DNA of 64,000 bases from Methanosphaerula palustris E1-9c. GTDB lineage: Archaea > Halobacteriota > Methanomicrobia > Methanomicrobiales > Methanospirillaceae. Shown here piece after piece: positions 20,195-26,122 of this stretch (the first letter of the stretch is position 1; the number at the start of each line of letters is the position of its first letter). Location: the NCBI RefSeq assembly GCF_000021965.1, contig NC_011832.1, forward strand, positions 248,001 through 312,000, given 5' to 3'. Position numbers and translations under genes: made by a program. The notes beneath the pieces were generated by a model. The model was not told the DNA's origin and made no database searches. It saw only the letters and a list, made by a program, of their open reading frames with translations.

Positions 20195-21358
20195 TCACCG
20201 GTGAGCCCGGGCGTGGTCGATGGAGGCGTTCAGCACCGCTTCGATCAGGGCCAGCGCACCCTCAACCCCAGCTGACGGTCTCGCCGAAAGCCTCACCTGC
20301 CCCCGGATCGGGGGTGCGTAACCGACGAAGGCTGCGCCCGGGCAGAGCCTTTCTTCGAATGAGGAGCCGAGGACCAGGTCGGGGCCGGCTCTCTCAAGCA
20401 ACCGGGCGACCTGATCGAGTCCGGTGGCCTCGCTGACACCGGGGCCAGCTTCTGGTGGCGGTGTGCCGCGGACCCCAATCGCGACTACCTCTGCACCCAG
20501 GTACTGCTTCAGCAGATCAGTGGCTGCCATGGCATACGCATACCCCCCAAAGACCGCAACCGTCGGGGGGTCGAACCGCACCAGGTACTTGTCGCAGGCA
20601 CGGACGATCCGTTCCTCTGCGTCGGTGATCTCGTTGACGATCGCCTCGCAGTCCACCCCGGGGTCCCGATCGGCCAGTCTGGCAAAGGTCGTTCTGACCT
20701 GGTTGAGGCCGAGGAGCGACCCGCAGGAGTCGCCTGCCGGGGCGGCGAGGTCTGGATTGGTGCTGACCGAATACCGGGAAGCCTGGTCGACCGCCGATAT
20801 CGTATCGGCGGCGAAGATCGTCCCTGGTCCGACCCCGGCCAGCCTGAGCAACCGGATTGCCTCGTCTCGGTTCCCCCGCCAGAACGGGTCGATCCGGGAG
20901 ATTCCGTCGATTCCGATCCCGTCCGCCTCTGGGTCGACCTGTGGGGCCAGCGCAGCAAGGGCGGTGAGATACCCGGCGTCGGCCCCGCCGGTGAACCCGG
21001 GGCAGTCGATCACCATCACCGGCAGATCGCCGAAGAGCGAGGAGAGATCCTCACCCATGATCGCCGGCACACATGTGTTCATAACGGCGAGCCGGGGATA
21101 CCGTGGGGCCAGTTCCTGTACAAGGGAGAGGAGTCGCTCTTCGGCACCGAAGACCACCTCCTCCTCAGTCAGATAGGTGCAGAACAGGTCTTTTGAATGG
21201 AGGAGCGAGGCCGGGTGATAGAAACATCCGCTCGCCCCGTGGACGATCACTCCGATACCGGAAAATCCGCAGAGGCAGGCGGCCGCCCCGGTCATCGCAC
21301 ATGGGACCAGCGGTCCAGCACAGCCGGGACCAGGGCCTGACTTCGGTTCTTCAGGCAT
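20195..21358 (-). CDS. Nitrogenase component 1-like subunit (NifK-like position)
   Basis: A 387-residue member of the nitrogenase MoFe-protein/protochlorophyllide reductase superfamily. P-cluster-like cysteines are visible at about positions 20 (PLVPCAMTG), 45 (VHGASGCFYH) and 96 (VMNTCVPAIMGED), with FGAEERL between them as in the family. The ATG at 21358 overlaps the upstream gene's TGA by eight bases; 29 further in-frame residues upstream read antisense-like, low-complexity sequence and are excluded. The N-terminus is unusually Cys-rich (C13, C20, C28, C30). No typical FeMo-cofactor Cys/His pair was identified. With the next two genes it forms a three-component reductase of unknown substrate. 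Confidence 0.85.
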   Translation of the reverse strand: MPEEPKSGPGPGCAGPLVPCAMTGAAACLCGFSGIGVIVHGASGCFYHPASLLHSKDLFCTYLTEEEVVFGAEERLLSLVQELAPRYPRLAVMNTCVPAIMGEDLSSLFGDLPVMVIDCPGFTGGADAGYLTALAALAPQVDPEADGIGIDGISRIDPFWRGNRDEAIRLLRLAGVGPGTIFAADTISAVDQASRYSVSTNPDLAAPAGDSCGSLLGLNQVRTTFARLADRDPGVDCEAIVNEITDAEERIVRACDKYLVRFDPPTVAVFGGYAYAMAATDLLKQYLGAEVVAIGVRGTPPPEAGPGVSEATGLDQVARLLERAGPDLVLGSSFEERLCPGAAFVGYAPPIRGQVRLSARPSAGVEGALALIEAVLNASIDHARAHR

Positions 21359-22397
21359 CGATCGTCCGCCTCCACTGCTGCAGCATCCGGCGGATGCCGG
21401 CGGTCCCGACCGGGAGCGGCACCGGAAGCCGGACCGGTGCGCCATCGCTACTGATGATGAGACCGAGTCGGTCTACCAATTCTGCAGTGAATCGGTCGGA
21501 GGGCTGGCTGAACCGGACCCGGGCGCCTCTGATCCGCTCGAACTGATCGAGCATCTGAGCCTGGAAGATCTCCTCCTCCTCGACTGCGGTGGTGCCGTCG
21601 ACAGCACAGCGGTCAGCCGTCTCCTGGACGAATCGGAGAGTTCCCGCAAGGCCGACCGGGAACCCTTCCAGGTACGGGATGGAGAACTGCTGCTGCAGTT
21701 CCTCGCCGAACGCGACAAGCGAAGGTTCACGGAGGATGTTCAGGTCAGCCCTCCCAAGCCTGGCGATCTCGTCGGTACTGATCCCCCTGACAAACCTGAG
21801 GTTCACTTCGATCCCTGCCCGATCGAGCAACCGGGTCACCTCGGCAGCGTTCTCATCCACTTCGTACTCCAGGTTCTTCTCCCCGATAAGGTTCACGCGA
21901 GGTTCAACTCCTTGCCCATCCCTCTTCTCCTGGCCTGTCGGTGCGAGGCCGGCCAAGGCTGAGAGGGCGTTGAAAAACCCGGTCGAGAAGACCCCTCCCA
22001 GAAACCCCTGGGTCTTCACCGGGATCACCGGAACCGGCCAGTCCTGTCCACAGATCGAATCGATATCGTCGCCGATGGCAGCGGTCACGCAGGTGCCGAG
22101 GACCATGACAGAGGTGTACCCGTCCCTGACGGCGTTTCTGATTACGGCGGTCAACTGCTCCTCGCCGCCGAAGATGATCTCCTCTTCGCCAATCCGGTCA
22201 GAGCAGAGCGCAGGAAGCGGGCCGCTCTCATGGTCGAGCAGCGTCGCATAGATCAGCGAAAGGTTATGATGGGCACAGCCCGCCGGGCCATGGATAATAC
22301 TGATCCCATCGGTGATCGCGGTCGTGACCGAGAGTGCTCCGGTCAGCGTGCACCCTTCATATCGATATGTACTTGAATGCGAGGTCTTCGAGTTCAT
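21351..22397 (-). CDS. Nitrogenase component 1-like subunit (NifD-like position)
   Basis: A 348-residue paralogue of the next gene. The three cluster-ligand cysteines are at about 16 ([10 protein letters not shown]), 41 ([10 protein letters not shown]) and 103 ([14 protein letters not shown]), and [11 protein letters not shown] matches the family. It is short compared with NifD (about 480) and closer to BchN/BchB or CfbD size. The start ATG at 22397 lies 41 bp inside the 3' end of the NifH-like gene in a different frame; no later start retains the first cysteine. Having two distinct component-1 genes implies a heterotetramer, unlike the CfbD homodimer of F430 biosynthesis. Confidence 0.87.
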
Positions 22398-23175
22398 CCA
22401 GCTCTAAAGGTTTCGGGATCGTCAGTGTGGTGTTCGTCAGCACCACCTCTGCAAGGGTTCGGTACGTTGCGGCCTGGGCTGAGTCGGGGGCATATTCAAG
22501 CACTGTCTGCTTGTGCACCTCGGCCAGCTGCACGATGCGGTCGCGGGGGATATAGGCGACCAGGTTGCTGCCGACCCGTTCGGCGAACTCCCTGACCAGA
22601 TCCTCCTCGCGGTCGATGTTCTTGGCATTGCAGATCACCCCTGCGAGCCGGCAGGTACACTTCGGTCGCTGGGAAAGCCGGTTGATCGCCTTGCAGATGT
22701 TGTTGGCTGCGTACAGGGACATCAACTCGCCTGAGGTGACCAGGTAGATCTCCTCGGCGTACCCCTCGCGCATCGGCATCGCAAACCCGCCACAGACCAC
22801 ATCCCCGAGGACGTCGTAGACGACCACGTCGGCTGAGAATGCTTCGAGTTTCTCGAGCACCTGGAAGGTCGCGATGATCCCACGGCCGGCGCAGCCGATC
22901 CCCGGTTCAGGTCCACCGGCTTCGACGCAGCGTATACCCCGATATCCGGTGTACACTACATCGTCGATGGTCAGGTTGGTCCCTCCGCGTTCCCGAATCA
23001 GGTCGAGCACGGTCGGTATCCAGGTGCCATGCATCAGCATCCGGGTACTATCGTGCTTGGGATCGCATCCGATCTGGAGGACACCGAGCCCTTGCTCAGC
23101 GAGTGCTGCGGAGAGGTTGGCCGAGGTCGTAGACTTGCCGATACCGCCCTTGCCGTACAGGGCAATCTGCTTCAT
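22357..23175 (-). CDS. Nitrogenase Fe-protein-like reductase (NifH/CfbC/BchL superfamily)
   Basis: A 272-residue ATP-dependent electron donor. Walker A is GKGGIGKST (residues 8-16), switch I region GCDPKHDST (36-44), and both 4Fe-4S ligands are present: Cys95 in GIGCAGRG and Cys128 in [12 protein letters not shown]. Arg98 corresponds to the ADP-ribosylated arginine of nitrogenases. GCDPKHDST, as opposed to GCDPKADST, is typical of BchL- and CfbC-like members. It opens the trio, 75 bp after the cupin gene, and an AT-rich element upstream (CTTATTTTGG) could be its own promoter. It should reduce the two component-1-like subunits encoded next. Confidence 0.92.
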
Positions 23176-24622: not shown

Positions 24623-26122
24623 CTAGACCGCCTCTTTCCACTGGCAATACTGGTGCCTAAAATCGATCAGAGCTGCTGAGGCGCAGTTCTTGCATCCCCT
24701 GACAGGGGCTGCCGGGTCTTCCTTGTGGAGTGCGATGATGTTGGTCATCATCGTGGCTGTTACTGGTTCACTGGTCAGTAGGCATGGGTAGTCGGCCAGC
24801 CGCATCAGGGCTGAGAACCGGACCGTTATCGCACAGGCTGGGTAGGCATACCGCTGCGGGTTCATCAGCACTTCGCTCTCTCTAATCGGGGAGAGGTCCA
24901 CCGGGAAGTCCCCCACCTTGGGGGCCAGCAGGTCTGAGGTACAACATTGCCCCCGCCTGGCCTTGTCCAGGTACTTCCAGCCGCGGTAGATCATATCCAT
25001 GAAGTCGCAGTTGTGCAGTTCGGCTGCCGCTCCCCTGGTCGGGTTCAACTGTACATAGTTGTGGTACCGCTTGGTCAGCAGGTCCACGACCATGATCGCA
25101 TTGAACCCATCCAGTTCAAGGATGTATTCGGTGGCACAGGCCGAGGAACCGGTGGCGAGGGCCAGCACATCGTACTCGCTCTTGAACTTTGGCAGCGAGG
25201 CGCGGAGGGACTTTTCCATCACCTCGGTGGCCGCCTCGATGGTGGCCATGATCACATCGTCCTTGCACATGTTGAAGGTGGACTGGGAGATGTGGTGGGC
25301 GATATCGCCGACACAGTAGGCTGGGATAGTCAGGATGTTCCCGTAGTGAACACCATCATCGATTGCAGCCTTCACTGCCCCCTCCATCTTCTGTCGATAG
25401 CCGGCCATGTACTTTCTCTGATCGAATGAGGTCATGCCGGCCGCGTCCATCAACTTCGCCTGTGCCTCGACCGGTTCATGGTAGATCGACTGGAACATGG
25501 CGATCTCCCGCTGGATGGCGTCCGAGAGCGTCGCCCCTTCCTCGATGGCGTGGGCGAAGACATCCCCGACTCCGTACGAGGTGTTCATTCCCCAGGACTT
25601 GGCTGCGAGGATCGCCTGCTTGTGGGCGTCGGGGATGTCTGTGGTCTTTAGGATCCGGTTCACCACGTTGCTGGTTGACCCCGGGACCAGGGCAAAGTCC
25701 ACCACACAGGTCGGACCGTAGAACCCGCCGTACCGGCGTGTGGACTCGAGCCCCATCAGCGCTTCAGATTTCCCGATCCGGGCTACGAATGTGTCAACAC
25801 TCTTCTTGAATGCAGGATCCTGGTCACAGAGGATCTCGAGGACCACCGGTGTCTGGTAGTGCTCGACGAACGGGTCGTCCTCAGGCCGGATAGTGTTTGT
25901 CAGCCCCTCAAGTGTCGAGAAGTGTGCCTTCACAGAGCCTGTATGGAGATCGATCACCGACTGTGCCTGTCCCTCGGCTACGGTCATCTTCTTCACCGCG
26001 TCGAGGTAGGCCTCGGCGTCCTTGAGCACAAACTGTGTTCCACGCTTCCTCTTCACGGTCTCGACATCGGCGCGCTGAGCTGCCATCGCCTCGTCGATCA
26101 TCTTCTCGTACAGTGCTGTCAT
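24623..26122 (-). CDS. DUF2193-family protein
   Basis: A 499-residue soluble protein recognised as DUF2193, found mainly in methanogens and of unknown function. Characteristic blocks include RPEDDPFVEHYQTPV, RRYGGFYGPTCVVDFAL, KSWGMNTSYGVG and a C-terminal cysteine group (RGCKNCASAA and the nearby QYC). There are further conserved-looking cysteines (ARRGQCCTSDLLAPK). The mixture of Cys and acidic residues suggests a metal or cluster site. It heads a coupled set with DUF2180 and aqpM, 52 bp below malic enzyme. No signal peptide or membrane helix was seen. No enzymatic role can be stated. Confidence 0.88.
   Translation of the reverse strand: MTALYEKMIDEAMAAQRADVETVKRKRGTQFVLKDAEAYLDAVKKMTVAEGQAQSVIDLHTGSVKAHFSTLEGLTNTIRPEDDPFVEHYQTPVVLEILCDQDPAFKKSVDTFVARIGKSEALMGLESTRRYGGFYGPTCVVDFALVPGSTSNVVNRILKTTDIPDAHKQAILAAKSWGMNTSYGVGDVFAHAIEEGATLSDAIQREIAMFQSIYHEPVEAQAKLMDAAGMTSFDQRKYMAGYRQKMEGAVKAAIDDGVHYGNILTIPAYCVGDIAHHISQSTFNMCKDDVIMATIEAATEVMEKSLRASLPKFKSEYDVLALATGSSACATEYILELDGFNAIMVVDLLTKRYHNYVQLNPTRGAAAELHNCDFMDMIYRGWKYLDKARRGQCCTSDLLAPKVGDFPVDLSPIRESEVLMNPQRYAYPACAITVRFSALMRLADYPCLLTSEPVTATMMTNIIALHKEDPAAPVRGCKNCASAALIDFRHQYCQWKEAV

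Follow-up and report, generated by a model that had tools for sequence, protein, structure and literature searches.

A nitrogenase-like H-D-K locus kept across nearly all Methanomicrobiales, with an Fe protein that appears to serve F430 synthesis as well

Three overlapping minus-strand open reading frames lie in the window, the 64,000-nt stretch of DNA analysed here (positions 248001-312000 of a closed genome of 2,922,917 bp; Table 1). The initial annotation had read them as a NifH-like gene followed by two NifD/K-like genes, and both the positions and the matches to PF00142 and PF00148 agree with this reading; we refer to the three as H, D and K. An alternative, longer start would give K 416 aa, with the ORF extending to 21445. 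The H-D-K order recurs in most of 51 distinct loci of the order and is therefore not due to chance, and the overlap of H with D, 34-43 nt long in most of these loci, suggests translational coupling. Upstream of H-D-K, at window positions 24623-26122 and beside an aquaporin-like gene, lies a gene for a DUF2193 protein (499 aa, 925 bits) that is not a conserved neighbour among the relatives.

Table 1. Features of the H-D-K locus (window coordinates)
Feature	Position	Strand	Description
H	22357-23175	-	NifH-type Fe protein, 272 aa; PF00142, E=2.3e-110
H motifs	in 272-aa H		Walker motif; [4Fe-4S] cysteines 95 and 128
D	21351-22397	-	NifD/E-like component-1 subunit, 348 aa; PF00148, E=2e-52
K	20195-21358	-	NifK-like component-1 subunit, 387 aa (conserved start); PF00148, E=4.7e-36
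H/D gene overlap	22357-22397	-	~40 nt; kept in most relatives
D/K gene overlap	21351-21358	-	8 nt; similar overlaps in most relatives

The cysteines to which the initial annotation had given cluster-binding roles are all present and conserved. Cys95 and Cys128 of H, described there as intact, are invariant in 70/70 relatives. The three P-cluster-like cysteines proposed for each component-1 subunit are likewise invariant: in D, Cys16 and Cys41 are each conserved in 65/65 residues (a single row has gaps at both positions) and Cys103 in 66/66, and Cys20, Cys45 and Cys96 of K are found in 64/64 sequences; K also has Cys13. In HMMER alignments, the cysteines of D and K fall onto the P-cluster cysteines of NifE and NifK, and the two subunits together carry the nitrogenase-type ligand set, to which the alpha and the beta subunit contribute three cysteines apiece. 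Ligands of FeMo-cofactor, which the initial annotation had failed to find, are indeed absent. The position of alphaCys275 is occupied by Arg223 in 66/66 D sequences, and the alphaHis442 region is lost with the missing C-terminal part of the 348-aa D.

AlphaFold models of D and K (pLDDT 86.6 and 87.6, respectively) both have the component-1 fold. The K model comprises all three domains, whereas the D model consists of two domains and a remnant of the third (domain III). Both subunits had been called short; this is true of D, which has lost domain III, but not of K. Among the solved structures nearest to D are NifEN, a cofactor-deficient MoFe protein and an alkaline-inactivated MoFe protein. In cofactor-free MoFe protein, the alpha-III domain is disordered. 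Both genes are under purifying selection, with dN/dS of about 0.13 for D and 0.08 for K in one pair of loci (L072/L116), and comparison of pairs shows that both evolve faster than H.

Because D lacks the FeMo-cofactor ligands and most of the third domain, N2 fixation by H-D-K is very unlikely, as the initial annotation had argued. No nifE, nifN or nifB is adjacent, which had also been observed; the same genome has a separate nifHDKEN cluster (L018) at 547-555 kb, and the missing ligands together with this cluster led us to reject N2 fixation for the locus. A further cluster in this genome (L017, 102671-106705), with gene order D-K-H, is separate from H-D-K of the window and resembles methylthio-alkane reductase (Mar); the best PDB matches of its D and K proteins are methylthio-alkane reductase chains, with 263 and 285 bits.

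Phylogenetic analysis places D and K in separate clades (support 100/99) away from CfbD, MarD/K, NifD/E and NifK/N. D falls on the side of the tree that holds NifD, NifE and MarD, and K on the side of NifK, NifN and MarK; the deep branches are weak, and no supported node joins either subunit to CfbD, Nif or Mar. MarD and MarK of R. rubrum group with the L017 proteins at 100, not with D and K. The position of D outside both the CfbD clade and the methylthio-alkane reductase clade, and a separate cfbD in the genome, agree with the earlier proposal of a heterodimer-type component 1 distinct from CfbD. We reject the identification of D as CfbD, given its own clade and the real cfbD elsewhere, and the identification of the locus as methylthio-alkane reductase, given the absence of D and K from the Mar clade. 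Scores against curated family models all lie below the cut-offs: 115.3 bits (D) and 44.6 bits (K) for the NifE equivalog (cut-off 505), 39.3 and 43.2 bits for the CfbD model TIGR03282 (cut-off 268.4) and, for D, 81.1, 44.6 and 33.5 bits for BchB, BchZ and BchN (cut-offs 490, 529 and 420).

The Fe protein H scores 426.5 bits against the NCBIfam CfbC model NF033200, above the cut-off of 402, which the other two NifH-type proteins of the genome, NifH of L018 (388 bits) and the Mar-like H of L017 (349 bits), do not reach. Scores of H against BchL (235 bits, cut-off 345) and BchX (204 bits, cut-off 331) are below both thresholds. In a tree calculated without an outgroup, the CfbC proteins of other orders form one clade and the NifH proteins another, each at 100/100. 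H of the Methanomicrobiales lies outside both, including H of genomes that lack D and K, and belongs to an Fe-protein lineage specific to the order. Thus, H resembles CfbC in its family score, and D is close to CfbD in length (348 vs 352 aa), but H is not found within the clade formed by the cfbD-adjacent CfbC genes. The deep placement of H relative to CfbC and NifH is ambiguous; H may either descend from CfbC or have replaced it.

The cfb cluster of this genome (L019) consists of cfbA, cfbE, cfbD and cfbB, of which cfbD, at 676 kb, was named by its score against TIGR03282 (493.8 bits) and the others by reading of their sequences. Dos Santos et al. (PMC3464626) list Mpal_0679 as a single-subunit NflD, which would fit this cfbD. 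The initial annotation had suggested looking for a separate cfbCD pair; cfbD is there, but the cluster contains no cfbC. Of 12 cfbD-bearing genomes from other orders (Methanosarcina-type and Methanocella-type), 10 have a CfbC-like gene immediately next to cfbD. Exactly one NifH-type match is found in 123 of the 185 genomes of the class/order, or about 116 when those without a full D are subtracted, a hand count from the match tables; wherever a complete genome was checked, D comes immediately after this one gene and cfbD is elsewhere. Since F430 synthesis needs a CfbC, and H is the sole NifH-type protein in about 116 genomes whose cfbD lies elsewhere without a cfbC, H appears, by elimination, also to act as CfbC, the reductase for CfbD. 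Canonical CfbC would then be replaced or absent in this order. The absence of cfbC from the cfb cluster, the CfbC score of H and its status as the only NifH-type protein in so many relatives argue against treating H as a subunit dedicated to D and K.

Although the system had been described correctly as one in a methanogen, it is not peculiar to this organism. Profile searches detect D in about 167 of the 185 genomes (E<=1e-100, counted by hand from the match table) and K in 171 (E<=1e-35), and the pair is present in six families of the order. Across 393 genomes of the phylum, the D profile yields at least 342 bits inside the order, and no D at full score occurs outside it: the next matches reach no more than 182 bits, and the best of them are NifH-NifD fusions about 735-807 aa long. 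Both D and K are absent from all nine genomes of genus g10, which we take to be Methanospirillum-type, and from G109 and G117. The Methanospirillum-type genomes keep H in the same place. Apart from the lack of D and K between H and the gene for a 140-aa protein, the surroundings in G166, G161, G164 and G109 are largely unchanged. In G029, G031 and G035, K has moved away from H-D and is still present. D and K behave as one unit that is separable from H and is kept and lost together, because they are jointly absent where H is kept and K is retained when unlinked. Methanospirillum-type genomes and G109 possess cfbD and H without D and K, so the pair appears dispensable for F430 synthesis.

The usual neighbours of H-D-K encode a flavodiiron-type protein, a phosphoribulokinase-like kinase, TrkH, LeuBCD and the 140-aa protein. 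These conserved neighbours offer no clue to the substrate; no cfb gene is found among them and no sulfur gene recurs nearby. The family of ~140-aa proteins (L093:7313-7753 and relatives) has no Pfam match; its gene directly follows K in many genomes and directly follows H in genomes without D and K. A functional link to ABC transporters was rejected: the shared ATPase family F16 mixes unrelated systems (MsbA-like exporters, an ECF-type ATPase, an oligopeptide/nickel-type system in L109 and a FecCD system in L131), and no conserved association is left.

We favour, with moderate confidence, a model in which H-D-K is an ATP-driven reductase that relays electrons through a P-cluster-type centre to an organic substrate in an open, cofactor-free site, and in which H is shared with F430 synthesis. 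The analysis shows how the genes are ordered and overlap, which residues are conserved, where the proteins fall in the trees, in which genomes they occur and that most of these genomes have a single Fe protein. From the sequences, we infer that a homodimeric H would hydrolyse ATP and pass single electrons to a D2K2 component 1, in which a P-cluster-type Fe-S centre, bound by the three cysteines of D and the three of K, would sit where the two subunits meet. Because the ligands and the lid domain (III) are gone, D probably binds no FeMo-type cofactor. The Fe-S centre would therefore hand its electrons straight to an organic substrate in D's open cavity, much as dark protochlorophyllide reductase (DPOR) does. 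The same H would also drive CfbD in place of canonical CfbC. As a first guess, which we hold weakly, the substrate might be a tetrapyrrole or another planar conjugated acid. The tetrapyrrole or small organic-sulfur substrate preferred by the initial annotation gains no support from the data, nor do they contradict it. The working analogy is to BchLNB, whose component 1 also lacks FeMo-cofactor and has an open substrate cavity; the K model matches BchB with a TM score of 0.85 on the query. Sequence similarity to BchLNB is low, however (profile probability 95 for D and 12 for K against BchN), and the six cysteines of D and K differ from the three cysteines and one aspartate of DPOR. Against the proposed reductase, the six-cysteine set is otherwise a feature of nitrogenase and methylthio-alkane reductase, both enzymes with a large active-site cluster; DPOR does not have it, nor does CfbD, in which just two cysteines are invariant among 31 sequences. 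The faster evolution of D and K relative to H, and conserved neighbours that give no hint of a substrate, also count against it. A bolder version is possible but doubtful: a minimal P-cluster enzyme with the full set of P-cluster ligands and neither cofactor nor lid domain would reduce its organic substrate straight from the P-cluster, and one Fe protein, having replaced canonical CfbC, would serve two component-1 enzymes.

Several other functions have to be weighed against this model. H-D-K could act next to CfbD on an intermediate of the sirohydrochlorin/F430 route, a side product or a modified F430. That H is the sole candidate CfbC in most of these genomes, that the open site of D resembles tetrapyrrole reductases, and that D and K are limited to one order within methanogens, which fits a methanogenesis cofactor, all speak for such a role; we nevertheless consider it unlikely, given the genomes that have cfbD and H without D and K and the lack of recurrent cfb neighbours. 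D and K might instead form a NifEN-style scaffold or maturase on which H, as the reductase, remodels a cluster; the [8Fe-9S-C] clusters found in the MCR activation complex would be one example. Among curated families, D is closest to NifE by score (115 bits), and it is so in the PDB by sequence and fold; yet an invariant Arg replaces the cofactor-anchoring Cys and domain III is missing in D, and K has three P-cluster cysteines. NifN has one. The MCR activation complex contains centres that resemble the L-cluster, and methanogens cannot do without NifB (PMC12176620), but other orders have no D at comparable score and Methanospirillum-type genomes no D or K, although they too are methanogens. 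This function seems quite improbable.

A C-S or S-O reductase of small molecules for sulfur assimilation, akin to methylthio-alkane or isethionate reductase, is rather improbable too. Such a role would agree with the activity of group IV D/K-pair enzymes with a known role, which act on organosulfur compounds (PMC12552129, PMC11423573), and with the architecture of MarHDK, which has two component-1 subunits with the same six-cysteine set, three in each. Unlike Mar, however, D and K are shorter, lie outside the Mar clade and have no Cys at the cofactor position of D, and the genome has its separate Mar-like D-K-H genes. Isethionate reductase IsrHDK has one conserved P-cluster Cys in D and three in K (PMC11423573), a pattern at odds with the three invariant cysteines in D of the window, and sulfur genes do not recur nearby. 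That D and K are decaying passengers of a cfbC gene without a catalytic role is hardly credible: their absence from several lineages and their faster evolution compared to H would be expected, but invariant cysteines, a dN/dS far below 1 and the occurrence of the pair in six families, with K kept even when unlinked, all tell against it.

The general kind of system has been known since 2012: Dos Santos et al. (PMC3464626) describe group IV pairs that have three cysteines in each subunit and lack ligands for FeMo-cofactor as unassigned clades in Archaea, Firmicutes and Proteobacteria, and the features of H-D-K match that class. Their text names neither the H-D-K family nor its order-wide range, and mentions neither an Fe protein used in common nor a D without domain III. 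Among open-licence papers, we found no description of an order-wide H-D-K family, of the domain III loss or of an Fe protein shared with CfbD. H-D-K is a nitrogenase-like enzyme without an assigned reaction, and almost every genome of the Methanomicrobiales, one of the major orders of hydrogenotrophic methanogens, carries it. D resembles a natural cofactor-free nitrogenase alpha subunit with intact P-cluster ligands and bears on the evolution of the P-cluster and cofactor sites. H appears to be one reductase with two clients, which would correct the assumption that every component 1 in these organisms has its own Fe protein.

Some relatives carry additional nitrogenase-like genes. In L120 and L122-L124, from one family of the order, a NifX-like protein (PF02579, 47 bits in L123) with a cysteine-rich C-terminus is encoded convergently to K. 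In G015, a second nifH-like gene, broken by one in-frame stop, lies beside two component-1-like genes (L091 region, 1049891-1052562). Fused NifH-NifD proteins of 723-728 aa, each followed by a K-like gene, are present at L131:3994-7448 and L132:4289-7743, and similar fusions exist in other families of the phylum. The fusion genes adjoin a FecCD/periplasmic-binding-protein transporter in L131 and a corrinoid adenosyltransferase gene in L132, and possibly represent a cobalamin- or metal-linked nitrogenase-like system.
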